Assembly: GCF_000299035.1 (NCBI RefSeq)
Contig: NZ_JH921522.1
Location: forward strand, 24,378 to 88,377
Length of the DNA: 64,000 bases
DNA from: Bacillus bingmayongensis
Lineage (GTDB): Bacteria; Bacillota; Bacilli; Bacillales; Bacillaceae_G
Direction: 5' to 3'
Shown: in pieces, positions 19,938-46,307 of the stretch
Layout: the number at the start of each line of letters is the position of its first letter
How positions within the stretch are numbered: position 1 is the first letter of the stretch
Notes under the pieces: generated by a model
Seen by the model: the letters and a program-made list of their open reading frames with translations, nothing else
What the model was told of the DNA's origin: nothing
Database searches by the model: none
Position numbers and translations under genes: made by a program

Positions 19938-20001
19938 TTACAAAACTGTTATGTTCACGTAATGGAAAGCGATAGTACGAAATGAAGCCTCCTTATACAA
20001 T
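19938..20001 (+). promoter_or_regulatory. Shared regulator-type promoter H (TTACA-N4-TGTTA ... CGATAG ... TACAAT)
   Basis: TTACAAAACTGTTA starts at 19938; GTAAT and CGATAG follow at offsets 21 and 32; the -10 TACAAT begins at 19996, exactly 58 bp from the first T. The same offsets recur at seven other loci in the window. It drives the three tiny genes at 20042-20353. Confidence 0.7.
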
Positions 20002-20041
20002 AAAGATGTAAACAAGAGATAAACAAAAGGAGAAAATAATC

Positions 20042-20122
20042 ATGATGAAAGAAATCGTAAAAGCAATCTTCGAAGTGTTAGTAAACGGACAAGCAGTTGT
20101 AAAAGAACTAAACCAACTATAA
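20042..20122 (+). CDS. 26-aa peptide, DAKAV-type family (member 1)
   Basis: An ATG-ATG start behind AAAGGAG opens a 26-codon frame: MMKEIVKAIFEVLVNGQ then AVVKELNQL. It is an amphipathic helix without a signal peptide. It aligns with the next ORF and with the peptides at 39377, 40486 and 43050 through the pattern V-x(3)-L-x-x-L-x-[DN]-x-[KQ]-A-V-x(3)-L-N. Function unknown. It is the first gene of a three-gene operon under the shared 58-bp promoter architecture. Confidence 0.7.
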   Translation: MMKEIVKAIFEVLVNGQAVVKELNQL

Positions 20123-20136
20123 AAGGAGGAATAAAA

Positions 20137-20214
20137 ATGATGAACATGGTAAAAATGATTCTCCACGCTTTAATTGATGCAAAAGCAGTTAGCCAAGAAT
20201 TAAATGAACAATAA
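20137..20214 (+). CDS. 25-aa peptide, DAKAV-type family (member 2)
   Basis: An AAAGGAGGA box and ATG-ATG start, 14 nt after the preceding stop. The peptide begins MMNMVKMILHALIDAKAV and ends SQELNEQ. It is closer than its upstream neighbour to the 33-aa peptides near 39-43 kb (ALVDAKAVATTLN). Conservation of ribosome binding site, double ATG and LI/VDAKAV core across loci argues that it is translated. Function unknown. Confidence 0.72.
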   Translation: MMNMVKMILHALIDAKAVSQELNEQ

Positions 20215-20230
20215 AAAGGGGAAAACGAAT

Positions 20231-20353
20231 ATGAAGAAAGCCATTTTTACAATTGTAGGTACAATCTTTGCCTTACACACACTAAAAAATAGAAAAAAGA
20301 AACAGAATGAAAATACTCTATATTATCCATATACATTATTACAGAAAAAATAA
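20231..20353 (+). CDS. 40-aa small membrane peptide
   Basis: ATG at 20231 follows AAAGGGG. The N-terminal half (KKAIFTIVGTIFALHTL) is a single hydrophobic helix; the C-terminal half is basic and polar (KNRKKKQNEN...YYPYTLLQKK). It is the third gene of the tiny-peptide operon and ends in the arm of a terminator. No family is recognised. Confidence 0.65.
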   Translation: MKKAIFTIVGTIFALHTLKNRKKKQNENTLYYPYTLLQKK

Positions 20354-20401
20354 AAGACAAGATACCCATGTGCAATTAGGATATCTTGTCTTTTGTTTTT
20401 T
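20352..20401. terminator. Terminator of the tiny-peptide operon
   Basis: AAAAGACAAGATA pairs with TATCTTGTCTTTT around an 18-nt loop, followed by a T-rich tail. Confidence 0.8.
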
Positions 20402-20513
20402 CTATTAAAAATTGTTGTTCCTTCTCCTCTTCTCACTACAAAGGATTTCCCTTTCCTTTTCACGAATATAGTAGACGGGAATTTTACATATATTTTCAAA
20501 GGGGCATATACGA

Positions 20514-21284
20514 ATGGATACACAACAACTTTATTTTTTAAATGATATTGGAAAACAAAAACCAGAAAGTATTCGCAATAAAAGCACCGCTTGTCCTTTT
20601 TGCGATACAGAAAACCTCACTGATATTTTAGAAACCGAAAATTCTATCATCTGGTTAAAAAATAAATTTCCAACATTGAAAGATACGTTCCAAACAGTTC
20701 TTATCGAAACGGATAATTGTGATGATCATATCGCAACCTATACACAAGAACATATGCAAAAATTAATTCGTTTCTCAATTAAACATTGGCTCGCTTTAGA
20801 AAAGAGCAATGAATTTACTTCCGTTATTTTATATAAAAATCACGGTCCATTTTCAGGGGGAAGTTTGCACCATGCGCATATGCAAATTATCGGAATGAAG
20901 TATGTAGACTGCCTGGAAAACATAGCACCTAAAAACTTTCAAGGCGTAATCGTAAAAAAAGACGAACAGATTGAACTTAATATTTCTACACGACCAATTA
21001 TCGGCTTCACCGAGTTTAATATTGTCATTGAAGACATGAAATCGATCGATATGATGGCACACTATATTCAGCAAACTGTGCGTTACATACTAACAGATTT
21101 TCATAAAGGATGTAGCAGCTATAATTTATTCTTCTATCATCTCCATGAAAAAATAGTCTGTAAAGTTGTTCCTCGTTTTGTTGTTTCACCATTATATGTC
21201 GGGTATAAAATCCCTCAAGTTTCTACAAAGCTAGAAGATGTGAAGCAACAACTCGCACGATATTTTACGAGAAAAGGTGAGTAA
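20514..21284 (+). CDS. DUF4931 / galactose-1-phosphate uridylyltransferase-like protein
   Basis: A 256-residue cytoplasmic protein. The N-terminal zinc-knuckle-like pair CPFC lies near residue 28. A HIT-superfamily segment GGSLHHAHMQIIG near 118-130 has the HxHxQ arrangement of GalT-type nucleotidyltransferases. The C terminus has a second histidine cluster and a basic tail. The GGGGC box is 8-9 nt from the ATG. The family is widespread in Bacillus, and its substrate is not known to me. The next gene follows at 2 nt and is probably translated by coupling. Confidence 0.78.
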   Translation: MDTQQLYFLNDIGKQKPESIRNKSTACPFCDTENLTDILETENSIIWLKNKFPTLKDTFQTVLIETDNCDDHIATYTQEHMQKLIRFSIKHWLALEKSNEFTSVILYKNHGPFSGGSLHHAHMQIIGMKYVDCLENIAPKNFQGVIVKKDEQIELNISTRPIIGFTEFNIVIEDMKSIDMMAHYIQQTVRYILTDFHKGCSSYNLFFYHLHEKIVCKVVPRFVVSPLYVGYKIPQVSTKLEDVKQQLARYFTRKGE

Positions 21285-21286
21285 AA

Positions 21287-21787
21287 ATAAATTATATAGC
21301 TCGAAAAGCTACTATAAATGATATAGAGTCATTAATTGATTTGCGCGTTTCCTTACTTAAAGAAGTAGATGGGCTGCATTCATATGAAGAGGAAGGTTCT
21401 TTCAGGCGCGCTACAGAACAATATTTACAAGTTGAAATACAAACAGGAAATTTTATCGCTTATATAGCTACCGTCAATGAAAAAGTTGTTAGTATAAGTG
21501 GAGTAACTTTCTTTCATCGACCACCTTATATAGAAAATTTAGAAGGCAAGGAAGCCTACATTTTGAACATGTATACTCTGCCGAAGTACCGTGGACATGG
21601 TATAGCCAAAAAATTACTAGAATACCGCTTAGAGGAATGTAAAGAAAACGGCGTAAAACGAATATGGCTTCATTCGTCTAAAGATGGTGAACCGCTATAC
21701 AAAAAAATAGGCTTTACTAATAAACAAAATGAAATGGAGCTTTTTCTGTTAGAAAAACAGAGTAGGTTCTTAGCACCTACTCTTTGA
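21287..21787 (+). CDS. GNAT-family N-acetyltransferase (start codon appears to be ATA)
   Basis: Homology to GNAT proteins begins at NYIARKATINDIESLIDLR, immediately after codon ATA at 21287. A GGTGAG box sits 5 nt upstream. No ATG, GTG or TTG occurs in frame between the stop at 21278-21280 and TTG 21341, which would remove the first conserved strand. The acetyl-CoA binding motif YRGHGIAKKLLE is near residue 103 and the C-terminal PLYKKIGF segment is present. The full reading is 166 residues. I infer that an ATG start mutated to ATA, leaving weak or downstream initiation. The gene overlaps the convergent transglycosylase gene by 11 nt. Confidence 0.7.
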   Translation: MNYIARKATINDIESLIDLRVSLLKEVDGLHSYEEEGSFRRATEQYLQVEIQTGNFIAYIATVNEKVVSISGVTFFHRPPYIENLEGKEAYILNMYTLPKYRGHGIAKKLLEYRLEECKENGVKRIWLHSSKDGEPLYKKIGFTNKQNEMELFLLEKQSRFLAPTL

Positions 21788-22310
21788 TTACCCCTTTATT
21801 TCGATAGTACACGTCCTCTAGCCCAACGTTATACTTCATATTTTGATCTGTCCACTCAGTTCCTAGATTGCCAGGCCACCCGGACGTATTTGCTATATAT
21901 TTTAGTAATGCTAAATCTGTTAAACCCTTTTGCACACCTCTTTTATACCCTTTCATTAAATGAGGCATGGCAATTTGGGCATTTGTCCGCGGGTCTTTCA
22001 ATTGCTCGTCCGTTAGGTGATCAGGAGCAAGTCCCCCGCCTCGATGTAACTGAAATAATCCAAAAGAAGTGCCATTGTCTCCAACACTTCGCGGGTTCAA
22101 ACGACTTTCATGCTCGGCAATTGTAAGAGGTATCCATTCTGGGAGATTTACTTTCTTTGCTTCTTCAATAATAATTTGTTTCATTTGTTTTGCTTCCTCT
22201 GAATCAACGTAACTTGTTTGATTCGTCAATCTTTCCATTCCTTCAGATTCTCCTTGGAAATATAAATACATCCCAAGAACAACTAAAAATCCTACAAAGA
22301 ATTTTTTCAC
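21777..22310 (-). CDS. Lytic transglycosylase-like protein (SLT domain)
   Basis: A 177-residue secreted or membrane-anchored protein. Residues 2-18 form an uncleaved signal/anchor, and an SLT fold follows. The catalytic glutamate lies in IAEHESRLNPRSVGDNGTSFGLFQLH near residues 65-90. Such enzymes cleave the peptidoglycan MurNAc-GlcNAc bond with 1,6-anhydro product. The start is GTG at 22310 behind GAGGTAGAGGT. The 292-nt region upstream (22311-22602) holds only promoter-like AT-rich sequence. Confidence 0.83.
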   Translation of the reverse strand: MKKFFVGFLVVLGMYLYFQGESEGMERLTNQTSYVDSEEAKQMKQIIIEEAKKVNLPEWIPLTIAEHESRLNPRSVGDNGTSFGLFQLHRGGGLAPDHLTDEQLKDPRTNAQIAMPHLMKGYKRGVQKGLTDLALLKYIANTSGWPGNLGTEWTDQNMKYNVGLEDVYYRNKGVIKE

Positions 22311-22602
22311 TACCTCTACCTCTTTCTATGCTGAAATTTGTCCCCTTTCAGCCCTTCCTTTACAATTACCTGCAATCTATCATCCTATTACTCTTAAATC
22401 ATATCAAACAAGCATTCATCTTAACATCATGCTTTAGACCGATTTTATGAACAATGCATAATAAAATAGTAAGAAAAATGTAGCATTCTTTCTCTATTAT
22501 ATATATGTAATTTTTACCATAACCCATTTTACATGGATTCCACCTTTTTATTTGTATATAATTGTAAATTGAATTCTACAAAAAGAACAGGAGACTGCCT
22601 AC

Positions 22603-24255: not shown

Positions 24256-24292
24256 AAAAATACCAAGCACAAATTTGTGCTTGGTATTTTTT
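24254..24292. terminator. Bidirectional terminator, perfect palindrome
   Basis: AATACCAAGCACAAA/TTTGTGCTTGGTATT is a perfect 15-bp stem flanked by A7 and T6, serving two convergent genes. Confidence 0.88.
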
Positions 24293-25799: not shown

Positions 25800-25883
25800 T
25801 CTTTTTCCCCATCTCCTTTTATTAAAACCTCGATGTATATTATAAATTATAGAAAATAATAGAAATAATATCCATATACTTCA

Positions 25884-25924
25884 AATAAAAAAGGATAGAG
25901 GCTTTTCTTTACCTCTACCTTTTC
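25884..25924 (-). terminator. Terminator of the TatD-like gene
   Basis: AAAGGATAGAGG and CCTCTACCTTT form a stem. On the minus strand it is followed by TTTTTTA. The 5' arm overlaps the last codons of the TatD gene. Confidence 0.75.
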
Positions 25925-26679: not shown

Positions 26680-26732
26680 CTTTATCATCTCCTACACCCA
26701 TTTTAATATGATATTCAAGAGTGAGTGCAAAT

Positions 26733-26764: not shown

Positions 26765-26773
26765 TCATCTATA

Positions 26774-26887
26774 TTATTTAACAATTAAATTTGTAATTAT
26801 ATCAAAAAGTCCAACACATACGACAGCAACAGTAAAGTATCTACAGAAATCTTTTATCGGAAACTTAACTACTTCTTCTTTTTGCAT
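26774..26887 (-). CDS. 37-aa single-pass membrane peptide under promoter E
   Basis: On the minus strand, ATG at 26887 with GGGAGAAG upstream opens a 37-codon frame: MQKEEVVKFPIKDFCRYF then a hydrophobic helix TVAVVCVGLFDIITNLIV and a final lysine. It lies between promoter E and a terminator, about 45 nt downstream of the expected transcription start, which supports translation. It is unrelated in sequence to the DAKAV or LASGAALLTA peptides but shares size, hydrophobicity and promoter type. Function unknown. Confidence 0.65.
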   Translation of the reverse strand: MQKEEVVKFPIKDFCRYFTVAVVCVGLFDIITNLIVK

Positions 26888-26936: not shown

Positions 26937-27000
26937 ATTATGCAAAAAATGTGACAAATAAGCTATCGAATTAACTTACGAAAACATTACAATGTTGTAA
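26937..27000 (-). promoter_or_regulatory. Shared regulator-type promoter E
   Basis: Read on the minus strand: TTACAACATTGTAA from 27000, GTAAG at offset 21, CGATAG at offset 32, and -10 CATAAT from 26942, exactly 58 bp from the first T. It drives the 37-aa membrane peptide gene. Confidence 0.75.
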
Positions 27001-27006
27001 GGTTTT

Positions 27007-27033
27007 AAAAAATAGCCTCATCTCATAATGAGA
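27007..27033 (-). terminator. Half of a terminator hairpin split by the IS3 element
   Basis: AATAGCCTCATCTCATAATGAGA lies left of the IS, and TAAGGCCTATT lies right of it at 28354-28364. Rejoined without the IS and one AGA duplicate, the minus strand reads a hairpin with arms AATAGGCCTTATCTCA/TGAGATGAGGCTATT and a T6 tail. It is a Rho-independent terminator that the element interrupted. Confidence 0.7.
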
Positions 27034-27116
27034 TGGTATTATCCCCTTTAAGTAGACAGTGTAAAAAGACCATGTACATACATGGGTGTTACACTATTAC
27101 TTGGAGGGGATTTTTC

Positions 27117-27437
27117 GTGGTTAAAAAAGGTACAACATTCAATACGTATTCAGATGGATTAAAACTATCAGCTGTTCAAAGTTATTTAAATGGAGAAGGC
27201 AGTTATCAAGCTATAGCTAAGCAATATAATATCAGGAGCTCTACACAACTTAAGGATTGGGTGAAAAAATATAAAGAATTGGGTGATATTACAGATACTC
27301 GTGGAAAAAATAGCGGAACTCAAGGTATTCCTAATCCTCTAAAAGGAAAACGTGTCCATTTTAACAGTGTGGAGGAAGAGAGAGACTACTACAAGGCACA
27401 GGTTGCATATTTAAAAAAGCGTTATCCAAATCTGTAA
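27117..27437 (+). CDS. IS3-family transposase OrfA (helix-turn-helix)
   Basis: A 106-residue DNA-binding subunit. The helix-turn-helix region SYLNGEGSYQAIAKQYNI..STQLKDWVKKY occupies residues 22-58, and the C-terminal part is a coiled coil (VEEERDYYKAQVAYLKKRY). GTG at 27117 follows TGGAGGGG; the upstream extension of the frame runs into the terminal repeat. Near 27411-27419 the heptamer A-AAA-AAG permits a -1 shift into the orfB frame, producing the OrfAB transposase. Confidence 0.85.
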   Translation: MVKKGTTFNTYSDGLKLSAVQSYLNGEGSYQAIAKQYNIRSSTQLKDWVKKYKELGDITDTRGKNSGTQGIPNPLKGKRVHFNSVEEERDYYKAQVAYLKKRYPNL

Positions 27438-27490
27438 ATGGAGGTGCACTGAGGCACAAGGAGCGATATCGTATCATTGAATCGTTAAAA

Positions 27491-28312
27491 ATGAAATATC
27501 CGATCACTTGGCTTACTAAATTCGCAGGTGTACATCGAGCGGGTTATTATAAATGGATCCGTGCGAAAACAGCTAAAAATGTACGATCAGAAGCGGATCA
27601 ACAATTAAAAAAAGTGATACAATCTATCCACCTGAAGTACAAACAATACGGCTATCCACGTATGAAAATAGCTTTACAGGAGGAAGGTTTCTTTGTAAAT
27701 CATAAAAAGGTTTATCGATTAATGAGTGAGCTCAACATTCAATCTATTATTCGTAAGAAGCGACGCTTCTTTAAAGGGAATTATTCGAATACTTTTCCGA
27801 ATGTTTTAAACCGTGAATTTAAAAATCGAAAACAAAATGAAGCGCTCGTTACAGATATTACGTATTTACGAATCCAAGATGGATTTCGCTATCTTTCTGT
27901 CGTGCAAGACATTTATAATAATGAAATTGTTTCTTGGAAAATCTCTAGACGCAATGACAATGAACTCGTATTAGATACGCTTGAAAATTTGGTACAAAAA
28001 AGAGATGTGCGTGGAACCATTCTTCATTCAGATCAAGGGTTCCAGTACACATCTCATGTCTACAACAAACGACTTTCAGATTTGGGTATCATCGGCAGCC
28101 ACTCTCGCAAAGGAAACTGCCATGATAATGCCTGCATCGAGTCATTTTTCTCCCATTTTAAATCGGAGATGTTGTATTTACACCATTTTAAAACAGAAGA
28201 AGAAGTAGTACAAGCAATTGAGGAATATATCTACTTCTATAACTATAAACGATTCCAAAAACGACTCAACCACCGAGCTCCGATAGAATATCGAATCTTG
28301 ATGGCTGCCTAG
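27491..28312 (+). CDS. IS3-family transposase OrfB (DDE integrase core)
   Basis: A 273-residue catalytic subunit. An HTH_21-like N-terminal region (KYKQYGYPRMKIALQEEGF) is followed by the rve core with DITYLRIQDGFRYLSVVQDIYN (first D), LHSDQGFQYTS (second D) and CIESFFSHFKSEML (E) at typical DD35E spacing. The frame is open upstream of the ATG back into the orfA overlap, so the natural product is probably the OrfAB fusion made by -1 frameshifting. Confidence 0.9.
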   Translation: MKYPITWLTKFAGVHRAGYYKWIRAKTAKNVRSEADQQLKKVIQSIHLKYKQYGYPRMKIALQEEGFFVNHKKVYRLMSELNIQSIIRKKRRFFKGNYSNTFPNVLNREFKNRKQNEALVTDITYLRIQDGFRYLSVVQDIYNNEIVSWKISRRNDNELVLDTLENLVQKRDVRGTILHSDQGFQYTSHVYNKRLSDLGIIGSHSRKGNCHDNACIESFFSHFKSEMLYLHHFKTEEEVVQAIEEYIYFYNYKRFQKRLNHRAPIEYRILMAA

Positions 28313-28437: not shown

Positions 28438-28501
28438 ATTGTAATAGAATTCGCATATGGCAACTATCGAATTACCTTACATGTACCTTACAATGTTGTC
28501 A
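28438..28501 (-). promoter_or_regulatory. Shared regulator-type promoter I
   Basis: Minus strand: TGACAACATTGTAA from 28501, TGTAAGG then TAATTCGATAG at the usual offsets, and -10 TACAAT from 28443, exactly 58 bp from the first base. It points toward the right end of the IS3 element. Confidence 0.75.
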
Positions 28502-28662
28502 TGAACAATATCACTTTTAACAAATTAGCTGTAATCAGACTTGCTAGCGTTGCAGCTCTACTTACAGCTTGGCCTAGTATAAACTTGTTTCTACTTTCTT
28601 GTTATATAGTTAGAGCTCCTAGATTCCATACTCACTGTCTAATTAAAACATATTATATATAA
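28501..28662 (+). pseudogene. Decayed copy of the LASGAALLTA-type peptide gene
   Basis: ATG at 28501 starts MNNITFNKLAVIRLASVAALLTAW, clearly related to the second peptides at 39492, 40601 and 43164 over about 23 codons. It then runs into unrelated sequence (PSINLFLLSCYIV...). There is no ribosome binding site, and the ATG overlaps promoter I of the opposite strand. It looks like a rearranged remnant. Confidence 0.6.
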
Positions 28663-28674: not shown

Positions 28675-28955
28675 TTTTCGACATATAAGTCACTGCTACG
28701 AAGAATAAAAGGTGACCTGCACTCGTTTTCTCCCTTTGTTTTAACTTGGCATGATGCAGAAGAGGGTCTGACCGCTTCTATGCTTGGCCGGATGCTCTCT
28801 CCCACCTAAAAAGAAAGGTTTATGTCAGTTTTTCAATTCGTATTTATATAGTAATTGTATATTCAAATACTGATAACGAAAAATTTCTTCTTTAAAAGAT
28901 TTATCCCGCATTAACGGGCAGTAAGATTCCCACTGATTAAAGTTTCACTTTATAT
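28675..28955. repeat. Dispersed intergenic repeat, copy 2 (rearranged)
   Basis: Bases 28675-28850 match the right half of copy 1 (GGTGACCTGCACTCG, TCTCCCACCTAAAAA, TTTATGTCAGTTTTTCAATT). Bases 28905-28955 carry the reverse complement of the left half (CACTGATTAAAGTTTCACTTTATAT). This suggests an inversion within the element. No gene is seen in 28663-29005. Confidence 0.7.
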
Positions 28956-28960
28956 GCAAT

Positions 28961-28998
28961 AAAAGACTGTAATACACTCGCCATGTTACAGTTTTTTA
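28961..28998 (-). terminator. Terminator of the YxeA-like gene
   Basis: CTGTAA and TTACAG arms around a 13-nt loop, followed by TCTTTTATT on the minus strand (and T6 on the plus strand). Confidence 0.65.
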
Positions 28999-29005: not shown

Positions 29006-29377
29006 TTACCTCATCTTCAAAAGCTGACTTCTCGCCTGCACAGGAATATTTTGATCCTCAATCTCTACTAATGATTCACCATAACGTCCTTTTGCGAAAA
29101 TTTTCAATGCCTCATCTCTTTTTAACATATTTTTTACCGTTTTCTTTATAGTTTGTTCTCTTCCTTTTTCATCGTATGCAACAAATTCATATTCGTACCA
29201 ATCATCGCCAACGTGCTGACCGATACCATTTACAATCGTATAGTATTCTTTCGTTTTATAAAATGGATTATATTTATCAATTACTGGTCCAAGCTTTGTT
29301 GGTAGTAGTAGTATAGTTGCAGCTACCGTCGCAATCCCAGTAATAATTACTCGCTTTTTTACCCTTTCCCACTCCAA
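29006..29377 (-). CDS. YxeA-family (DUF1093) small membrane-anchored protein
   Basis: A 123-residue protein with an N-terminal signal/anchor helix (about 10-30) and an OB-fold-like extracellular domain. EYEFVAYDEKGREQTI, LKIFAKGRYGESLVEIE and the ending IPVQARSQLLK are typical of the YxeA family. TTG at 29377 follows GGAGGA by 7 nt; the ATG six codons earlier lies inside the ribosome binding site region. In B. subtilis, yxeA belongs to the operon controlled by the YxdJK system. Here the gene sits behind promoter F of the shared regulator type, which fits that regulation. Confidence 0.72.
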   Translation of the reverse strand: MEWERVKKRVIITGIATVAATILLLPTKLGPVIDKYNPFYKTKEYYTIVNGIGQHVGDDWYEYEFVAYDEKGREQTIKKTVKNMLKRDEALKIFAKGRYGESLVEIEDQNIPVQARSQLLKMR

Positions 29378-29422
29378 GATGGATTCCTCCTCCATACAAT
29401 ATGTGTAGTTTTCTATAAACTT

Positions 29423-29486
29423 ATTTTAAAGAGAAAGACTCAATTCCGCCATTGAATCCCATTACATTTCCCTTACATTTTTGTAA
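29423..29486 (-). promoter_or_regulatory. Shared regulator-type promoter F upstream of the YxeA-like gene
   Basis: Minus strand: TTACAAAAATGTAA from 29486, GTAAT at offset 21, CAATGG at offset 32 and -10 TAAAAT from 29428, exactly 58 bp from the first T. The inverted repeat also reads on the plus strand toward nirB but without a -10 at the conserved distance. Confidence 0.7.
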
Positions 29487-39189: not shown

Positions 39190-39267
39190 GATGTTCCCCC
39201 TTTTAATTCCCTTAATATTCCACTAGTATATTTTATCACAAAAATGATTATTAAAATGAATTATCTC

Positions 39268-39331
39268 TTACAAAAATGTAATCTTGCTGTAAGCTAATTC
39301 GATAGTTGCCCCTACCTGTATTTCATATAAT
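39268..39331 (+). promoter_or_regulatory. Shared regulator-type promoter A
   Basis: TTACAAAAATGTAA at 39268-39281, GTAAG at offset 21, CGATAG at offset 32, and TATAAT at 39326-39331, 58 bp from the first T. It drives the two-peptide operon 39377-39587. Confidence 0.78.
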
Positions 39332-39376
39332 TAAGTTAGAAAGTAACAACAACCATTCGAAAAGGAGCGGATATAC

Positions 39377-39478
39377 ATGATGAACGAATTAAAAACTAAC
39401 AAATTCTTAAATACAATGAGCATGGTGTTATCCGCTCTTGTCGACGCAAAAGCTGTTGCTACTACTTTAAACAAGTAA
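39377..39478 (+). CDS. 33-aa DAKAV-type peptide, operon A
   Basis: AAAGGAGCGG precedes a double ATG. The peptide (MMNELKTNKFLNTMSMV then LSALVDAKAVATTLNK) has a polar N terminus and an amphipathic C-terminal helix. It is almost identical to the products at 40486 and 43050, and related to 20042 and 20137. Three copies keep identical reading frame and start while third positions vary between copies A/B and C (for example GTTATCC versus GCTATCT), which indicates selection on the protein. Function unknown. Confidence 0.8.
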   Translation: MMNELKTNKFLNTMSMVLSALVDAKAVATTLNK

Positions 39479-39491
39479 GGAGAGAATACCT

Positions 39492-39587
39492 ATGAACAAC
39501 ATTACTTGTAACAAATTAGATTTTATTGGACTAGCTAGCGGCGCTGCTCTTCTTACAGCTTTCATTTATGCTGCTACGCTTATATAA
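39492..39587 (+). CDS. 31-aa hydrophobic peptide, LASGAALLTA type, operon A
   Basis: AAGGAGAG lies 6-8 nt before ATG 39492, 13 nt after the first peptide stop. The sequence MNNITCNKLDFIG is followed by a hydrophobic helix LASGAALLTAFIYAATLI, a likely single membrane span without signal cleavage. It is nearly identical in operon B, and in operon C has a changed tail. Its fixed pairing with the DAKAV peptide suggests that the two act together. Confidence 0.8.
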   Translation: MNNITCNKLDFIGLASGAALLTAFIYAATLI

Positions 39588-39589
39588 CT

Positions 39590-39657
39590 TTGTGTCCCCT
39601 TCCCCTTTATATAAATAGTAATAGAAAAGACGACCGTCTATGCCCGGTCGTCTTTTC
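39590..39657 (+). terminator. C-rich 3' element and terminator of operon A
   Basis: A conserved unpaired stretch GTCCCCTTCCCCTTTATATA is followed by the hairpin AAAAGACGACCG/CGGTCGTCTTTT with T tail. The same C-rich stretch follows operons B and C and the ORF-less transcript D. The hairpin also terminates plsC on the other strand. Confidence 0.78.
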
Positions 39658-40263
39658 CTACTTGTTATTTCTTTGTAATGTTTCTGTTAGTTCTTCAAAT
39701 GTTTCGTTCAATCGATCTGTCATCAATTTCATTGCTGTTTTTCGATCTACTGCTTCTCCCGCTTCTACTTGAATCGGATTACCAAAAATTAATTTTGCTC
39801 TTTTCCCCTTAATTAATTCTTTTACACTTGATGGCCCAACATAAGCTGCAGGTACTAAAGGAACATTAGAACGCATCGCAATCGTAACAGCTCCCGCTTT
39901 TAAAGAAACGTCCTCCGTCGACCTCGTTCCACTTGGAAAAATCCCCACTACCTTTCCATCCTTTAATAACCGAGATGGAATTTTCAATGTACTTGGGCCT
40001 GGATTTGCACGATCTACCGGAAAAGCATTCACATTCTTAAAAAACCAATTTGTAAATTTACTTTCAAACAGTTCCTTTTTTGCCATATAATGAATTTCCG
40101 TTGGATACATCCCGGCCGCTAACATTAAAACATCCATAAAACTCGTATGTGTACAAGCAACAACATATGGTCCACCTTGAGGTAAATTTTCTCTCCCTTG
40201 TACTTCCACTTTCCCAATAGTCTTAAATATATATTTCAACAAAAATGTAATTAGTTTATACAT
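39658..40263 (-). CDS. plsC: 1-acyl-sn-glycerol-3-phosphate acyltransferase
   Basis: A 201-residue membrane-associated acyltransferase that converts lysophosphatidate to phosphatidate. The HX4D motif is HTSFMD near residue 37; the glycerophosphate-binding block GIFPSGTRSTED near 108 has serine where many homologues have glutamate (PEGTRS). The N-terminal hydrophobic segment (LITFLLKYIFKTIG) anchors it. AAAGGAAC precedes the ATG. It lies between duplicated peptide operons A and B on the opposite strand. Confidence 0.88.
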   Translation of the reverse strand: MYKLITFLLKYIFKTIGKVEVQGRENLPQGGPYVVACTHTSFMDVLMLAAGMYPTEIHYMAKKELFESKFTNWFFKNVNAFPVDRANPGPSTLKIPSRLLKDGKVVGIFPSGTRSTEDVSLKAGAVTIAMRSNVPLVPAAYVGPSSVKELIKGKRAKLIFGNPIQVEAGEAVDRKTAMKLMTDRLNETFEELTETLQRNNK

Positions 40264-40376
40264 TCATTTCGTTCCTTTCCCAATATCCAAAGTTTAATTA
40301 TATCCTTACACAAATTATAACACTAACTTTTAGTAGTTGGTAATAAAATTAAGTGACAATTTTTAAAAATTAATTC

Positions 40377-40440
40377 TTACAAAAATGTAATCTTGCTGTA
40401 AGCTAATTCGATAGTGACATCTCTCCACATTTTGTACAAT
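40377..40440 (+). promoter_or_regulatory. Shared regulator-type promoter B
   Basis: TTACAAAAATGTAA at 40377-40390, GTAAG and CGATAG at the standard offsets, and TACAAT at 40435-40440, 58 bp from the first T. Sequence between CGATAG and -10 differs from operon A, so the conserved elements stand out. Confidence 0.78.
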
Positions 40441-40485
40441 TAAGTCAGAAAGTAACAACAACCATTCGAAAAGGAGCGGATATAC

Positions 40486-40587
40486 ATGATGAACAAAATC
40501 AACACAAATAAATTCGTAAATACAATGAGCATGGTGTTATCCGCTCTTGTCGACGCAAAAGCTGTTGCTACTACATTAAACAAGTAA
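40486..40587 (+). CDS. 33-aa DAKAV-type peptide, operon B
   Basis: Same AAAGGAGCGG box and double ATG as operon A. The peptide reads MMNKINTNKFVNTMSMV then LSALVDAKAVATTLNK and differs from copy A only near the N terminus. Operon B is a near-exact duplicate of A from the promoter through the terminator, with plsC between. Confidence 0.8.
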   Translation: MMNKINTNKFVNTMSMVLSALVDAKAVATTLNK

Positions 40588-40600
40588 GGAGAAAATATCA

Positions 40601-40696
40601 ATGAACAACATTACTTGTAACAAATTAGATTTTATCGGACTAGCTAGCGGCGCTACTCTTCTTACAGCTTTCATTTACGCTGCTACGCTTATATAA
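40601..40696 (+). CDS. 31-aa hydrophobic peptide, LASGAALLTA type, operon B
   Basis: ATG 40601 with AAGGAGAA upstream. The peptide differs from copy A by one residue (ALLTA context: GATLLTA). A single predicted membrane helix follows a short polar head containing one cysteine. Confidence 0.8.
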   Translation: MNNITCNKLDFIGLASGATLLTAFIYAATLI

Positions 40697-40733
40697 TTTT
40701 GTGTCCCCTTTCCCCTTTATATAAATAGTAATG

Positions 40734-40767
40734 AAAAGACGACCGTCTATGCCCGGTCGTCTTTTCA
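40734..40767. terminator. Terminator shared by operon B and the 46-aa gene
   Basis: The same AAAAGACGACCG/CGGTCGTCTTTT hairpin as after operon A; convergent genes on both sides. Confidence 0.83.
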
Positions 40768-40908
40768 TTATATTTTTCTTTCATGTAATTCTTTTAATAG
40801 CTGTATCATTTCAGCTTGTTGTTTTATCTTCTTACGACCATTTCGATTAATCGCTGCAAGCTCACATGCAATTCCAACGGCAAAGAAAAACAATAAACTT
40901 TCTAACAT
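40768..40908 (-). CDS. 46-aa small membrane protein downstream of the EamA exporter gene
   Basis: ATG 40908 follows TGGAGGA. MLESLLFFFAVGIACELAAI forms one membrane helix, followed by a basic, helical tail (NRNGRKKIKQQAEMIQLLKEL). It begins 26 nt after the EamA stop on the same strand and is probably co-transcribed with it. Function unknown. Confidence 0.68.
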   Translation of the reverse strand: MLESLLFFFAVGIACELAAINRNGRKKIKQQAEMIQLLKELHERKI

Positions 40909-40934
40909 ATAAAATCCTCCACATGCATTGTCTA

Positions 40935-41903
40935 TTAGACAGCTTGACGCAACTCCTCTTCTTCTAAAACCTGCTTATCCTTGCTTTCTTCTTTACGCTG
41001 ACATACGTTATTTCGGATAAGAGCCGTCATAACAAGCATTGTTCCTACTATATCAAAAATTGTTATTTTATATCCTTGCATCATCATAATGACCAATGTA
41101 GTAATTGGAACAAAGTTAATAAATAAAATCCCATTAATTGATGATAAAATTTTTACACCATAATTCCAAGTAAGTAGTGCCACAATACCTGGTAATGTCA
41201 TCATAAATAATAAATCGTACTTAACAATAGAAATCGTTTCCACACTTGGTACCGATACATATCCTAACATTGTAATGATCATCGTTATGACACCTGTTAC
41301 AGCTGTACCAAATACACATGTCAATGTAGAATAGCGAAGTGTCGACCAATCACTAAAGGATTGGCCACCCATCGTATAGATTACCCATCCCACAACACCT
41401 ATAAAAATAAATGCTAGTGAAAATAGATTATCTTTCAATGTAAGGAAGAAACTCATATCACCTTTTGTAATAACAAAAATAGCTCCAATAAAAGCGATTA
41501 TCATACTTGTAATCATGTACCTCTTCGGTTTTATATGTTTATATCCCCATAGAATACCAATTGAAATCATCGGCATAAGCGCCTCCATAATAGACGCTAC
41601 CATAACACCGGATTTCCCCATTAACATTTGGCCTAAGAAAACAAGTACATTATATACAGTAAACGCCATCGTTCCGAAGAAGACGAGTAGCTTTCCTTTC
41701 CCTTCTAAACGAAATGCCTTCTTGCCTTCTTTCATCAATAATAATAAAACTAATACAATCGCTACTGCCCCGTAACGAATGAACGAAAAGTAAAATGGAT
41801 CTATATACTCTAGTGCATGATCTGCAACTGGAAACATTGCTCCCCATGACATGCTTGCGATTAAACATGCCAGTGCCCCCATTATCATTTGACCTTTTCT
41901 CAC
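40935..41903 (-). CDS. EamA/DMT-superfamily transporter
   Basis: A 322-residue membrane protein with ten predicted helices in two EamA repeats. ASMSWGAMFPVADHALEYIDPFYFSFIRY is the first-repeat signature, and the second repeat starts near residue 150 (VGWVIYTMGGQ). Such proteins export metabolites or amino acids. GTG 41903 follows GCGGGGG. The divergent LysR regulator and the palindrome between them indicate specific control. Confidence 0.85.
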   Translation of the reverse strand: MRKGQMIMGALACLIASMSWGAMFPVADHALEYIDPFYFSFIRYGAVAIVLVLLLLMKEGKKAFRLEGKGKLLVFFGTMAFTVYNVLVFLGQMLMGKSGVMVASIMEALMPMISIGILWGYKHIKPKRYMITSMIIAFIGAIFVITKGDMSFFLTLKDNLFSLAFIFIGVVGWVIYTMGGQSFSDWSTLRYSTLTCVFGTAVTGVITMIITMLGYVSVPSVETISIVKYDLLFMMTLPGIVALLTWNYGVKILSSINGILFINFVPITTLVIMMMQGYKITIFDIVGTMLVMTALIRNNVCQRKEESKDKQVLEEEELRQAV

Positions 41904-41991
41904 CGTAATCCCCCGCTTCTATGTAATTCTCGATGCATTGCACAATGAGAATTGTAAAAGAAAAAATATATCACGTAAAATGATTCAAAAT

Positions 41992-42026
41992 GATGTTAAC
42001 TATCATTTATAATGATAGTTAACATC
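41992..42026. promoter_or_regulatory. Perfect 16-bp inverted repeat, likely LysR operator
   Basis: GATGTTAACTATCATT, a 3-nt spacer, then AATGATAGTTAACATC. It ends 15 bp before the LysR TTG start and lies about 90 bp upstream of the EamA start. The position fits autoregulation plus divergent control. Confidence 0.7.
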
Positions 42027-42041
42027 AAGGGGGAATGCTCA

Positions 42042-42908
42042 TTGGAACTACGAGACTTACAAATTTTCCAATGCGTTGCAGATTACGGAAGTGTCAGCAA
42101 CGCAGCAAAAGAATTAAATTATGTACAATCCAATGTAACAGCACGTATTAAACAATTAGAAAACGAGCTCAAAACGCCGCTTTTTTATCGCCATAAAAAA
42201 GGGATGACATTAAATGCAGAAGGACGAAAAATGCTTGCTTACGTTAATAAAATTTTGCAGGATGTTGAAGAACTGAAACAAGTATTTCTAGATAGTAACA
42301 TGCCATCTGGAACCTTAAAAATCGGGACAGTCGAAACAGTGAGTACATTACCTACCATCCTATCTTCTTACTACAAAGAATATCCAAATGTCGACTTATC
42401 ACTGCAAGCTGGTTTAACCGAGGAACTCATTAAAGAGGTTATTGACCACCAATTAGATGGCGCTTTTATATCAGGACCTATTAAACATCCACTATTAGAA
42501 CAATATGATGTATGTACAGAAAAACTCGTTCTCGTTACGCAAAATAAAGCCTTTCATATAGAAGAATTTATAACAACACCACTCCTTGTCTTTAATCAAG
42601 GGTGCGGCTATCGTTCTAAGCTAGAGCGTTGGCTCAAAGATGAGGGATTACTTCCAAAAAGAATTATGGAATTCAATATATTAGAGACAATTTTAAATAG
42701 CGTTGCACTCGGCCTCGGGATTACACTCGTGCCGCAGTCCGCTGTTAGGCACCTTTCTACTACAGGAAAAGTTCATTGTCATCCGATTCCTGAAAAATAT
42801 GGGAGCATTTCAACTGTCTTTATAAGGCGGAAAGATACCTATCTGACCAACTCAATGCAGAGCTTTTTAAAAACAATTGAAGAGCATCATCATATCAATA
42901 TGCTTTAA
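42042..42908 (+). CDS. LysR-family transcriptional regulator
   Basis: A 288-residue regulator. The N-terminal winged HTH is [38 protein letters not shown] (residues 2-40), and the LysR substrate-binding domain spans about 88-285. TTG 42042 was chosen: AAGGGGG is 8-9 nt upstream and homology starts at ELRDLQIF; an ATG ten codons earlier lies in the operator palindrome. It most likely controls the divergent EamA transporter gene. Confidence 0.88.
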
Positions 42909-42938
42909 GAGACATTCTTACACGAATGTCTTTTTTTC
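42909..42938 (+). terminator. Terminator of the LysR gene
   Basis: GACATTC/GAATGTC around a 6-nt loop with seven T, directly upstream of promoter C. Confidence 0.82.
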
Positions 42939-43002
42939 TTACAAAACTGTAATGCTGCCGTAAGCTAATTCGATAGTTACCCCTGCCCACATTTCATATA
43001 AT
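42939..43002 (+). promoter_or_regulatory. Shared regulator-type promoter C
   Basis: TTACAAAACTGTAA at 42939-42952, GTAAG and CGATAG at the standard offsets, and TATAAT at 42997-43002, 58 bp from the first T. It drives the operon 43050-43268. Confidence 0.78.
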
Positions 43003-43049
43003 TAAGACAGAAACAAGGGCAACAACAATTCGAAAAGGAGCGGATACGC

Positions 43050-43151
43050 ATGATGAACAAAATGAAAACAAACAAATTTGTTAATACAATGGGCATGGTG
43101 CTATCTGCTCTAATCGATGCAAAAGCAGTTGCTACAACTTTAAACAAATAA
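43050..43151 (+). CDS. 33-aa DAKAV-type peptide, operon C
   Basis: AAAGGAGCGG and double ATG. The peptide reads MMNKMKTNKFVNTMGMV then LSALIDAKAVATTLNK. Compared with operons A and B many changes are synonymous, so this copy is older and still constrained. Confidence 0.8.
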   Translation: MMNKMKTNKFVNTMGMVLSALIDAKAVATTLNK

Positions 43152-43163
43152 GGAGAGATAACT

Positions 43164-43268
43164 ATGAACGACATTACTTTTAACAAATTAGACTTTATTG
43201 GACTTGCAAGCGGCGCAGCTCTTCTTACAGCTTTTATTTACGCACTTGCTCAAGGCCTCATCTTATAA
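43164..43268 (+). CDS. 34-aa hydrophobic peptide, LASGAALLTA type, operon C
   Basis: ATG 43164 after AAGGAGAG. The head MNDITFNKLDFIG and helix LASGAALLTAFIYA match copies A and B; the tail LAQGLIL is longer. The single cysteine of copies A and B is phenylalanine here, so the cysteine is not essential. Confidence 0.8.
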   Translation: MNDITFNKLDFIGLASGAALLTAFIYALAQGLIL

Positions 43269-43274
43269 AATCGT

Positions 43275-43336
43275 TTCCCCTAACCCCTTTATATAGAGAA
43301 AAATCTGCTCGTCTTATGGACAAGCAGATTTTTTAA
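43275..43336. terminator. C-rich 3' element and terminator of operon C
   Basis: TTTCCCCTAACCCCTTTATATA is present in shortened C-rich form, followed by AAAAATCTGCT/AGCAGATTTTTT around an 11-nt loop. It is also the terminator of the convergent regulator gene. Confidence 0.75.
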
Positions 43337-44253
43337 TTTGTTTCATATATAACTTGGCCCGTTTTACTTATATCGTATCCACCAATTGCTCGCAGTTCAT
43401 TTTGAAATTCTAGAGATTGTAGTATTTCTTTTACAGCTTCAATGAGTTGTTCATTTTCTTTATTTTTTAAGATTATCAAGTCATATTGTTCTTTCATAAG
43501 TGGAATAAAATCTACATTCACAATTTGCGCTACCTTTTCTGATCCTACGCCGACATCGGCTTTCCCATTAGCAATTTGAGAGGCAACGCCAAGATGATTA
43601 GACTCTTCCCAATCATATCCTCGAATATTTGCTTTAGCTAAATTTTGAATTCTCACCTGTTCATCTACTAGTACACGAATTCCTGATCCTTTTTCACGAT
43701 TCACAAATTGAATCGATGAGTCATTCAAGTCAGCCCACGTTTGTATTCCTTTTGGATTTCCTTTTTGGACATAAAATCCAACATTTCTCGCTAATAAGTT
43801 CATCACAATACATGGTTGTCCAACTAAAATTCGTTTTACATACGGAATGTTATATTCACCTGTATCGCCATCAAACAAATGTAAGCTAACGATACTCCCT
43901 TCTCCTTGAGACATCTTAATTAAGCTCATTAAACTCCCCTGATAAGCCCTAAGCATACTAGAGCTTGGTAAAAGTTTTTCAAGATGCTTCGCTAGCATAT
44001 CTAATGTTAACTCTTGCCCACTAATGACACAGGAAGATTCCCTATGCTTCTTCTCTAGTTTCATAGAAGCAGCCTGCACTTTCCCCGTTTTCATTTGCTT
44101 AATATATTGTTCTAAGTCCACCGCATCGATACGCATTTGTCTACCAACTCTGTAAGAAGGTAGTTCACCTTTTTTTATTAAATCATACACTGTTAACTTT
44201 GAGACTTTTAATCTGGTTGCTACCTCTTCCGTTGTGTAGGAATGATAATCCAT
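43333..44253 (-). CDS. HTH/periplasmic-binding-domain regulator of molybdate uptake (YvgK-like)
   Basis: A 306-residue cytoplasmic protein. An excisionase/MerR-type HTH (YTTEEVATRLKVSKLTVYDLIKKGELPSYRVGRQMRI) occupies residues 6-45, and a PBP-like domain (about 95-300; FVNREKGSGIRVLVDEQ, GVASQIANGKADVGVGSEKVA) binds a ligand, probably molybdate or molybdopterin-related. B. subtilis has the same neighbour order yvgK, yvgL (modA), yvgM (modB). ATG 44253 follows GTGAGGA; the longer frame lacks homology. Confidence 0.82.
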   Translation of the reverse strand: MDYHSYTTEEVATRLKVSKLTVYDLIKKGELPSYRVGRQMRIDAVDLEQYIKQMKTGKVQAASMKLEKKHRESSCVISGQELTLDMLAKHLEKLLPSSSMLRAYQGSLMSLIKMSQGEGSIVSLHLFDGDTGEYNIPYVKRILVGQPCIVMNLLARNVGFYVQKGNPKGIQTWADLNDSSIQFVNREKGSGIRVLVDEQVRIQNLAKANIRGYDWEESNHLGVASQIANGKADVGVGSEKVAQIVNVDFIPLMKEQYDLIILKNKENEQLIEAVKEILQSLEFQNELRAIGGYDISKTGQVIYETN

Positions 44254-44334
44254 AGACGATTCCTCACTTTCTCTTTTCATTGTAACAAAGAATGAAAATT
44301 TCTCCTATTTTTTCAAAAAGTGATTTATTTCACA

Positions 44335-44370
44335 TTATATTTAATTATATCTATTTATAATTAAATATAA
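44335..44370. promoter_or_regulatory. 15-bp perfect inverted repeat in the modR-modA intergenic region
   Basis: TTATATTTAATTATA, 6-nt spacer, then TATAATTAAATATAA. A further partial copy TATAATTA is at 44376-44383. It lies between the divergent regulator and modA, the expected place for the operator of the HTH/PBP regulator, although AT-rich sequence makes chance symmetry more likely than usual. Confidence 0.55.
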
Positions 44371-44412
44371 TTAGTTATAATTAATGCGATGAAAAGAAAG
44401 GGGATTATATGT

Positions 44413-45219
44413 ATGAGCAAATTTACATTACGGTACATTGGGGTATTCATGCTTTCTTTCCTTCTTATATTTAGTGCCGCTTGCACAAGCGGAGAAAAGA
44501 AAGAAAAAACAAATGCTAAAGAAGAAAAAGCAGTTGAACTTACAATATCTGCAGCTGCAAGTTTACAAGATGCTTTTAAAGAAATTGAAAAACAATATAA
44601 ACAAAAAGAACCAAACATAAAGCTTGCCTTTAACTTTGGTGGTTCTGGCGCACTTCAGCAGCAAATTGAACAAGGTGCTCCTGCTGATTTATTCTTCTCT
44701 GCAGCAGAAGATAAATTTCAAACGCTTGTCAAAAAAGGATTTATTAATGAAAAAGAGGGGAAAAGCCTTCTTGGAAATGAACTTGTTTTAATCGTTCCAA
44801 AGGAAAGCTCTATTAAAACATTTCAAGAATTAAAAGAGGAGAAAGTGAAAAAACTAGCAATCGGTACACCAGAATCTGTACCAGCTGGAAAATATGCAAA
44901 AGCTTCTCTTACACATGGAAATTTATGGAATGACCTCCAAAACAAAACTGTATTTACAAAAGACGTTCGCCAAGTGTTAACATATGTAGAAACAGGAAGT
45001 GTAGATGCTGGAATTGTATACAAAACAGATGCTCTTATTTCAGATAAAGTAAAAATCGCAGGTGCAGCACCTGCTAATTCTCATGAACCTATTCATTATC
45101 CAGTAGGAGTCATAAAAGAATCCAAGCATAAGAAAGAGGCGACTTCATTTTATGAATATTTACAGTCAAAAGATACACAATCTATCTTTAAAAAATATGG
45201 ATTTACAATCCTATCGTAA
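44413..45219 (+). CDS. modA: Molybdate ABC transporter substrate-binding lipoprotein
   Basis: A 268-residue lipoprotein with lipobox LIFSAAC (cysteine near 23). The ModA fold begins LTISAAASLQDAFKEIEKQY, with molybdate-ligand regions FGGSGALQQQIEQGAPADLFFSA and VDAGIVYKTDA. ATG 44413 follows AAAGGGG; an ATG eight codons earlier precedes that box. ModA delivers molybdate to ModB; molybdenum serves molybdopterin enzymes such as nitrate reductase. Confidence 0.9.
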   Translation: MSKFTLRYIGVFMLSFLLIFSAACTSGEKKEKTNAKEEKAVELTISAAASLQDAFKEIEKQYKQKEPNIKLAFNFGGSGALQQQIEQGAPADLFFSAAEDKFQTLVKKGFINEKEGKSLLGNELVLIVPKESSIKTFQELKEEKVKKLAIGTPESVPAGKYAKASLTHGNLWNDLQNKTVFTKDVRQVLTYVETGSVDAGIVYKTDALISDKVKIAGAAPANSHEPIHYPVGVIKESKHKKEATSFYEYLQSKDTQSIFKKYGFTILS

Positions 45220-45224
45220 CTACT

Positions 45225-45899
45225 ATGACATTTGATACACTTTGGCTGCCTGTTTTTCTTTCCTTACGAGTAGCTGCACTCGCCACCATTATTGTTATGA
45301 TTTTTGGCACAGTTATCGGACGAGTATTAGCTCGCTCCTCATGGCGTTATAAAGTGTTATTAGAAACTATTTTTCTGTTACCGATGGTACTTCCACCAAC
45401 TGTTATTGGGTTCTTTCTCATTATTATTTTTGGGAATAACAGCCCTGTTGGAAAGTGGATTGAATCATTATTTCAACAATCGATTATGTTTACATCATGG
45501 GCAGCTGTCATCGCTTCAACAGTCGTTTCATTTCCACTGATGTATCAATCGGCAAAGACAGGGTTTTCTATTGCAAACAAGCAAATCGAAGATGGTGCCC
45601 GCGATCTTGGAGCAAGTGAATATCAAGTCTTTTTACACGTCACACTACCACTTGCATTTCCTGCATTACTTAGTGGAATGATTTTAAGCTTTGTACGCGC
45701 ACTCGGTGAGTTTGGAGCAACACTTATGTTTGCTGGTAACATTCCAGGCAAAACACAAACGATTCCAACAGCTATTTATATGGCAATTGATGCAAGTAAT
45801 ATGAACCTTGCTTGGACACTCGTTATCATAACAGTCAGTATGTCACTCATATTTTTATTGTGCATTCAGCTGATTAATAAAAGAATCACTACTTCTTAA
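45225..45899 (+). CDS. modB: Molybdate ABC transporter permease
   Basis: A 224-residue permease with five to six membrane helices. The EAA loop EDGARDLGASEYQVFLHVTLPLAFPALLSG lies near 120-150, and LGEFGATLMFAGNIPGKTQT is the ModB/CysT signature. It begins 5 nt after modA, with no strong ribosome binding site of its own, so it is translationally coupled. No ModC ATPase follows; the ATPase must be encoded elsewhere. Confidence 0.9.
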   Translation: MTFDTLWLPVFLSLRVAALATIIVMIFGTVIGRVLARSSWRYKVLLETIFLLPMVLPPTVIGFFLIIIFGNNSPVGKWIESLFQQSIMFTSWAAVIASTVVSFPLMYQSAKTGFSIANKQIEDGARDLGASEYQVFLHVTLPLAFPALLSGMILSFVRALGEFGATLMFAGNIPGKTQTIPTAIYMAIDASNMNLAWTLVIITVSMSLIFLLCIQLINKRITTS

Positions 45900-45931
45900 A
45901 GCAGCTTTCAACAAAAGCTGCTTTCTTTTTA
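45898..45931 (+). terminator. Terminator after modAB
   Basis: AAAGCAGCTTT/AAAGCTGCTTT with 5-nt loop and TCTTTTT tail, confirming that the operon ends without modC. Confidence 0.85.
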
Positions 45932-45974
45932 TATTATTTCCCGAAAAATAAAGTATTTTGTAGAATGAAAGGAA

Positions 45975-46215
45975 ACTCTATATAAAGTGAAACTTTAATC
46001 AGCCTGCACCAATCGGGCTTCTACGAGCAGTTTATCTCCCACCTAACTTCTTTGCTTTCTCAGAATTTTGAGGTGGGAGTATTACTGCCCACAAATAGCG
46101 GGATACATCCATTTTGATTTTTGACATATAAGTTGTTGCTATAAAAAAGGGGACTTACACCCGTCTTCTCTCTTCCACCCAAAAATGGTTTATGTCCTTT
46201 TTTTATTTGGATTTA
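45975..46215. repeat. Dispersed intergenic repeat, copy 3
   Basis: It shares TATATAAAGTGAAACTTTAATCAG, the CCCACCTAACTTC block, the AATTTTGAGGTGGGAGTATTACTG-type block, TTTTGATTTTTGACATATAAG and a shortened right end with copies 1 and 2. A segment of copy 1 around the GGTGACCTGCACTCG block is decayed here. No coding sequence is seen. Confidence 0.72.
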
Positions 46216-46243
46216 TATAATTCATCACCTATATCTTTCCACC

Positions 46244-46307
46244 TTACAAAAATGTAATCATCTTGTAAGGTAATTCGATAGTTACCATTGTCCATATCTC
46301 ATATAAT
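46244..46307 (+). promoter_or_regulatory. Shared regulator-type promoter D
   Basis: TTACAAAAATGTAA at 46244-46257, TGTAAGG and TAATTCGATAG at standard offsets, and TATAAT at 46302-46307, 58 bp from the first T. Confidence 0.78.

Follow-up and report, generated by a model that had tools for sequence, protein, structure and literature searches.

A BceR-type operator precedes micropeptide units and a YxeA-family gene across 26 kb of Bacillus bingmayongensis DNA

In Bce systems, a BceAB-type transporter and a histidine kinase sense an antimicrobial peptide, and the phosphorylated regulator then binds its target promoter. We analyzed a 64-kb stretch of Bacillus bingmayongensis contig NZ_JH921522.1 (GC content, 35.5%; hereafter the window), in which eight promoters with a common operator are spread over 26 kb. 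Behind them lie a gene for a YxeA-family protein and short units coding for micropeptides (Table 1). A preliminary description of the sequence had likened the operator core to the site of BceR/YxdJ-type regulators.

Operator and promoter anatomy

All eight promoters that the preliminary description had placed in the window (H, E, I, F, A, B, C, and D) are present at these positions and on these strands. The core claimed for all of them was found as TNACA-N4-TGTWA in 8/8 sites, with TGTTA in H. GTAA stands at offset 21 in every site, and CGATAG, said to occur at offset 32 in most sites, was detected there in 7/8, the exception being F. When the best TATAAT-like hexamer was searched for at offsets 40 to 79, it was located at exactly offset 58 in all eight promoters (5 or 6 of 6 matches), as had been described. 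Outside the window, the spacing of the -10 box is mostly 57 to 59 and thus nearly but not absolutely fixed. In line with the earlier remark that no good -35 box is seen, TTGACA was matched at 2 or 3 of 6 positions with a 17-bp spacer; a match at 5 of 6 positions in promoter B requires a spacer of 15 bp. Behind the inverted TTACA, TGTAA-like half-sites follow at offsets 9, 20, and 31 (the last as TCGAT), in 11-bp steps corresponding to one helical turn.

For the core together with GTAAK at offset 21, the window gave eight matches, whereas 200 dinucleotide shuffles averaged 0.01, with no more than 1 in any of them. With the ATRG element added, the count was still eight, against none in dinucleotide shuffles. 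A strict 38-bp pattern matched six times, and 100 shuffles contained no match to it. The window has further core matches, listed as eight entries (two of which, 53800 and 53813, are the two strands of one palindrome); they lacked the additional elements and were dropped. A consensus promoter scan of positions 39190-46500 gave 28 matches, compared with 27.6 in shuffles, and was thus uninformative.

Units behind the promoters

In H, E, F, A, B, and C, the first open reading frame (ORF) starts 104 to 113 nucleotides (nt) from the operator. The tiny peptides and the YxeA-like protein described as targets were recovered, but the assignment of the ORF-less units had to be corrected: these are D and I, while E carries an ORF of 37 amino acids (aa) with a good ribosome-binding site. 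The YxeA-family protein encoded behind F scored above the curated cutoffs of both TIGR01655 (44.0 versus 29.65 bits) and PF06486 (47.8 versus 26.3 bits). Its gene probably starts at the TTG at 29377 behind GGAGGAGG (123 aa); the mechanically called ORF starts at an ATG at 29395 (129 aa). The second peptides of units A, B, and C belong to DUF3948 (PF13134; cutoff, 25 bits), with 47.9 bits for A2, 50.4 for B2, and 58.4 for C2. Searches at an E value of ≤1 returned no Pfam match for H1, H2, H3, A1, B1, C1, and E1, and no NCBIfam match for H1, H2, H3, A1, and E1, the set searched there. Rfam, the sole check for RNA function, gave no match in 19600-47000. The hydrophobic moments of the helical stretches are moderate (0.46 to 0.48 for H1, A1, B1, and C1; 0.32 for H2), which fits membrane association of the peptides without proving it.

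Simple copying had been excluded as the origin of the eight promoters. This does not apply to A, B, and C, which are paralogous (identity over 387 to 399 aligned nt: A-B, 91.5%; A-C, 82.4%; B-C, 81.7%), nor to D, in which the promoter and the 3' end align with those of C and the ORFs are missing; its sequence suggests that D is probably a deletion remnant, the alternative being a small RNA. It does apply to H, E, I, and F, which match A to D poorly between the elements (10 to 55% in the 20-nt spacer). Since A, B, C, and probably D are duplicates, we count about five independent lineages (ABCD, H, E, I, and F). Between B1 and C1 there are 11 synonymous as opposed to 4 nonsynonymous changes, which counts in favor of the interpretation given in the Discussion.

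The decay visible here could mean that the regulation is real but ordinary, a single duplicating or decaying peptide unit having been scattered with its promoter, so that the sites would be copies and remnants and not a selected regulon. The 82 to 92% identity of A, B, and C and the remnant D speak for it, as do the missing ORF of I and the transposase element between I and E, into which promoter I reads. However, the low spacer identity of H, E, I, and F and their different ORFs are combined with a conserved operator and spacing, and YxeA and peptide targets recur behind the same promoter in other genera (see below). We therefore regard this explanation as unlikely.

Upstream of promoter I, positions 28520-28600 (-) read like a short-peptide remnant, LGQAVSRAATLASLITANLLK, which suggests a trace of older decayed units. 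Positions 28920-28980 (minus strand) and 45980-46110, close to promoters I and D, have a repeat-like sequence in common, AAGTGAAACTTTAATCAG ... TACTGCCC ... GCGGGATA, which is perhaps a dispersed genomic repeat.

Table 1. Promoters, peptide genes, and other features of the 26-kb region, in window coordinates
Feature	Position	Strand	Description	Basis
Promoter H	19938..20001	+	TTACA-N4-TGTTA; GTAAT at offset 21; CGATAG at offset 32; -10 TACAAT at offset 58	
H1	20042..20122	+	26 aa, MMKEIVKAIFEVLVNGQAVVKELNQL; micropeptide family	ORF with ribosome-binding site; alignments
H2	20137..20214	+	25 aa; micropeptide family	ORF and alignments
H3	20231..20353	+	40-aa hydrophobic/basic peptide; third ORF of unit H	ORF reading
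E1	26774..26887	-	37-aa hydrophobic peptide, MQKEEVVKFPIKDFCRYFTVAVVCVGLFDIITNLIVK; terminator-like hairpin after it	ORF reading
Promoter E	26937..27000	-	Operator runs down from 27000; -10 CATAAT	
Transposase element	27033..28312	+	Between promoters I and E; 134-aa helix-turn-helix ORF (27033-27437) and 273-aa rve integrase-core ORF (27491-28312)	
Promoter I	28438..28501	-	TGACA-N4-TGTAA; -10 TACAAT; no own ORF before transposase genes	
YxeA-family gene (DUF1093)	29006..29377	-	Behind F; 123 aa from TTG 29377 (probable start)	TIGR01655, E = 2.9e-11; PF06486, E = 2.3e-12
Promoter F	29423..29486	-	CAATGG replaces CGATAG; -10 TAAAAT	
Promoter A	39268..39331	+	-10 TATAAT	
A1	39377..39478	+	33 aa; micropeptide family	ORF and alignments
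A2	39492..39587	+	31-aa hydrophobic peptide; DUF3948	PF13134, E = 1.1e-12
Hairpin, end of unit A	39624..39657	+	Terminator-like, strong	
Promoter B	40377..40440	+	-10 TACAAT	
B1	40486..40587	+	33 aa; micropeptide family	ORF and alignment
B2	40601..40696	+	31 aa; DUF3948	PF13134, E = 1.8e-13
Hairpin, end of unit B	40728..40771	+	Terminator-like, strong	
Promoter C	42939..43002	+	-10 TATAAT	
C1	43050..43151	+	33 aa; micropeptide family	ORF and alignments
C2	43164..43268	+	34 aa; DUF3948	PF13134, E = 5.7e-16
Promoter D	46244..46307	+	-10 TATAAT	
Unit D leader	46308..46440	+	No ORF; terminator-like hairpin at end	Aligns with start and end of unit C

The operator in other genomes

A search of 199 Bacillales genomes with a BceA fragment yielded 56 places in 49 genomes, and 30 loci, among the best scoring, were read. 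They include close relatives, and two of them (L113 and L119) have an identical promoter. In 28/30 loci, the core was found 92 to 131 nt before the start of the query match. Among these 28 promoters, the half-site G[TA]AA[GT] is present at offset 21 in 27, AT at offsets 34-35 in 25, and CGAT at offset 32 in 17. The best or equal-best -10 box stands at offset 58 or 59 in 26/28 with ties broken toward 58, and in 19/28 if ties are excluded. We conclude that the architecture inferred from the eight sites is the general architecture of bceAB promoters, which strongly supports the earlier assignment of the core to the BceR/YxdJ type. The likeness to BceR-type bceAB promoters in Bacillales (BceR, PsdR, and YxdJ in Bacillus subtilis) thus comprises TTACA-N4-TGTAA, the half-site at offset 21, AT at 34-35, and the -10 box at 58/59. 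Fang et al. reportedly described main and secondary BceR sites in 2017. At offset 21, however, the bceA promoters mostly have GAAA (20/28; GTAA in 7/28), while all eight window sites have GTAA. In addition, known bceAB promoters adjoin their own transporter, whereas the window holds eight sites within 26 kb and neither a regulator nor a transporter nearby. The earlier statement that the window contains no BceR-type system held up in tblastn searches, which gave chance-level matches for the regulator and, for BceA, general ATP-binding cassette ATPases with identities of ≤35%.

Pattern searches were also made without reference to BceA. A scan of a genome collection returned eight stretches from other Firmicutes, followed by a BceR-type regulator gene (L001), BceAB-type transporter genes (L004, L007, and L006, the last read in L052), a DUF1093 gene (L003), a DUF4870-type gene (L002), a lytic-transglycosylase-like ORF (L005, read in L051), and an unknown 105-aa ORF (L008). 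With one mismatch allowed, the same genomes yielded sites in front of bceAB (L012 and L013), of a tiny Brevibacillus ORF (L014), and of a 483-aa ORF in the Paenibacillus genome (L048). A relaxed operator pattern, TNACANNNNTGTWANNNNNNNGTAAKNNNNNNNNATRG, was found at 22 places in 19/299 Bacillales genomes, with at most four per genome; the reversed pattern, used as a control, was found once. Since the relaxed form occurs eight times in the 64-kb window, the window is exceptionally rich in it. As assigned by ORF reading, with three YxeA relatives checked by Pfam, the 22 matches precede BceAB genes (11), BceB alone (1), YxeA-type genes (4), tiny ORFs (4: L009, L137, L133, and its divergent neighbor L145), a DUF418 gene (1), and a contig end (1).

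These data bear on the possibility that another OmpR-family regulator reading direct repeats, such as WalR or PhoP, owns the sites. TGTAA recurs as a direct repeat with a period of 11 bp (offsets 9 and 20), and TGTAAT-N5-TGTAAG resembles the WalR box, whose consensus is TGTWAH-N5-TGTWAH. However, conservation is as strong for the inverted TTACA upstream and for CGATAG downstream, both in the window and before bceA (28/30 loci), and the relaxed-pattern matches lie mostly before Bce-type and YxeA-type genes. Moreover, 6/8 sites have G at position six of the second repeat, which falls outside the WalR consensus. Control by WalR or PhoP is therefore very improbable.

Several further loci carry the operator before genes other than bceAB. 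Stand-alone YxeA genes behind their own operator are also present in L010, L130-L132, and L021, the last a viral contig (site 858-895, minus strand; PF06486, E = 9.4e-22). When plasmids and phages were searched with unit A, the peptide C2, and the YxeA-family protein as queries, the only relevant matches were YxeA relatives with identities of ≤33% on Enterococcus and Lactococcus plasmids. A nearly identical BceR-type operator was seen in 31/32 loci on viral contigs, where it precedes, if the locus is long enough, a gene for a 161-aa protein of unknown function (PHROG 18822). In L026 (1476-2092), this gene lies between a phage integrase gene and a gene for a Cys-Gly-repeat peptide, which resembles precursors of the heterocycloanthracin type of bacteriocin. 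The PHROG 18822 gene could be an immunity or conversion gene under a BceR-type response.

In three genomes of the Brevibacillus genus (L059, L060, and L064), the operator is followed by a lytic-transglycosylase-like ORF of 174 to 175 aa and then directly by bceAB. DUF418-type membrane proteins are encoded behind the operator in L061 and L062 (Brevibacillus genus) and in L144 (other Bacillales; the Pfam-checked case), and may be another recurrent nontransporter target. Finally, L133 (G277:C1:1907136-1907526) has two divergent operators 0.35 kb apart, each driving a hydrophobic tiny ORF (37 and 23 aa). Together with L083, L146, and L147, genome G277 has five scattered sites and represents a second case of a dispersed regulon with small membrane peptides.

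The micropeptide family

H1, H2, A1, B1, and C1 belong to a micropeptide family with a consensus of about MKKxxEIxIAIxEVLxDGKxVAxELN. A profile built from nine peptides, five of them from the window, contains no promoter information (profile A1, not to be confused with peptide A1). In the 299 Bacillales genomes it gave four matches at E ≤ 1e-4, all of them tiny ORFs, and all four have the promoter upstream, with the -10 box at 58 or 59. Two of these promoters (L082 and L085) fit the full pattern. Profile A2 (again not the peptide), which is profile A1 extended with these four matches, whose later scores are high by construction, added a fifth case in G357, where the -10 box is at 57 (one linker base is missing) and a transglycosylase gene follows.

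In G001, the gene order is operator, peptide, BceR-type regulator, kinase, and BceA. The regulator has receiver and winged-helix domains, and its best solved relative is 5dcm/5dcl, which we take to be the nisin-resistance regulator NsrR; the kinase fragment gave a subthreshold HisKA match. The tiny ORF of L014 in Brevibacillus encodes 33 aa, is similar to H1, and is kept with the promoter in 3/5 genomes of the genus. In a fourth genome of this genus, G403, the operator, a related 36-aa ORF, bceA, and bceB follow each other in this order. At the level of sequence, these results show that the association of this micropeptide type with the promoter extends to other Bacillaceae and to the Brevibacillus genus, and that in some cases it includes the bceRSAB or bceAB operon as well. 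A search of 39 genomes of the Brevibacillus order listed 14 matches; 4 are tiny ORFs, and 9 in frames of 903 to 905 aa and 1 in a 157-aa frame were dropped as chance.

Several observations weigh against the interpretation given in the Discussion. L083 and L084, the other two matches of profile A1, have GTCAT or GTCAC instead of GTAAK, while the core, the AT element, and the -10 box are kept. For nine weaker matches of profile A2 (E, 3.1e-5 to 7.5e-3), the 300 nt upstream contain no such core; among these nine are six tiny ORFs (L090-L095) that are clearly related. The peptide family is therefore wider than the promoter, and the members nearest to those of the window are bound to it. The peptide is also rare (14/397 Bacillales genomes at E ≤ 0.01). 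A class-wide sample had it in 4/338 genomes at E ≤ 1e-4, all four already found, so that no new member was detected there beyond Bacillales and Brevibacillus. Furthermore, the Brevibacillus orthologues differ mostly by nonsynonymous changes (2 to 4 synonymous, 4 to 10 nonsynonymous).

The micropeptides of L090-L095, which read about TLTVVEVMINGKKVVYELN, stand behind a conserved AGGGGAGTGAT-type leader without a BceR-type operator and may represent a sister family under other control.

Discussion

Because the promoters of the window match those of bceA and the link between peptide and promoter recurs, we read the locus as a multicopy outgrowth of the Bce response onto micropeptides and YxeA. 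It is highly probable, in our judgment, that a regulator of the BceR/YxdJ type (OmpR family), whose gene lies elsewhere in the genome, activates the eight promoters and that the peptides are defense helpers. The phosphorylated regulator would occupy TTACA-N4-TGTAA and the half-sites at offsets 20 and 31. Bound there, it would recruit RNA polymerase to a -10 box that lacks a usable -35 box, standing in for the -35 contact. Its predicted targets are the YxeA-family membrane protein and the short units coding for hydrophobic or amphipathic peptides of 25 to 40 aa. Most likely, the peptides would be quickly made, membrane-associated helpers of antimicrobial-peptide defense, with the membrane, the BceAB-kinase complex, or the lipid II cycle as possible points of action. 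During the history of the window, one unit has been duplicated (A, B, C, and the probable remnant D), and the target of promoter I appears to have been struck by the transposase element.

The role of the peptides could also be a different one. Under the same antimicrobial-peptide response, they might be toxic or bacteriocin-like peptides or signals, a view suggested by their hydrophobic or amphipathic nature, their short length, their several copies, and the strong terminators. However, no export leader or antisense partner turned up, although neither was searched for, and cotranscription with BceRS or bceAB in G001 and G403, as deduced from gene order, favors a role within the module. There is thus a small chance that they are toxins or signals, and we prefer the view that they are defense helpers.

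Dispersed regulons of this type have precedents. TNACA-N4-TGTAA is given as the consensus for regulators of bceAB-type genes in PMC9020739. In Lacticaseibacillus paracasei, ApsR and PsdR act on the promoters of derAB, mprF, and dlt (PMC10858260), and in Enterococcus faecalis a network of genes is under MadRS (PMC10614854). These BceR-like regulators have scattered targets, and dispersion alone therefore does not make a Bce-type regulon new. Yet the targets named for them there are transporters and envelope-modifying enzymes, while those in the window are arrays of micropeptides. Promoter F, which drives a YxeA-family gene, recalls the YxdJK-YxdLM-YxeA system of B. subtilis; the YxeA gene of the window, in contrast, stands alone behind its own operator. 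In Bacillus cereus G9241, five adjacent DUF3948 genes are the top upregulated transcripts at 37°C in a strain lacking pBCX01 (PMC10196113). A2, B2, and C2 resemble these DUF3948 peptides of the B. cereus group in matching PF13134, but each of the window ORFs is the second of its unit, behind a different micropeptide and a BceR-type promoter, and the passage on G9241 gives neither function nor promoter. The presence of DUF3948 and the base composition suggest that the window itself belongs to the B. cereus group. Searches of the open-access literature found no paper that places DUF3948 or these micropeptides under BceR-type control. What appears to be new, as judged from sequence comparison, is that a complete promoter grammar goes with micropeptides, that one micropeptide type recurs behind this promoter across genera, and that it has multiplied in the window.

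More tentatively, and as an idea that we hold to be possible but not probable, the micropeptide of 25 to 37 aa (about EVLxDGKxVAxELN) may be an unrecognized component of some Bce modules, which certain species cotranscribe with bceRSAB or bceAB. In the lineage of the window it would have been duplicated and have left the transporter locus, which would place scattered micropeptide units under the command of a BceR-type regulator, so far regarded as serving one neighboring operon.

The tiny, largely uncatalogued peptides look like an extra, poorly known arm of antimicrobial-peptide defense. One type is known only as DUF3948 and the others had no match in the Pfam and NCBIfam searches made, and they are now connected to a specific and testable stress response. 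The promoter grammar (the core, half-sites at offsets 20 and 31, and a -10 box at 58/59) provides a means to find such targets in other Firmicutes, and Bce modules may hold peptide components that annotation pipelines have missed.

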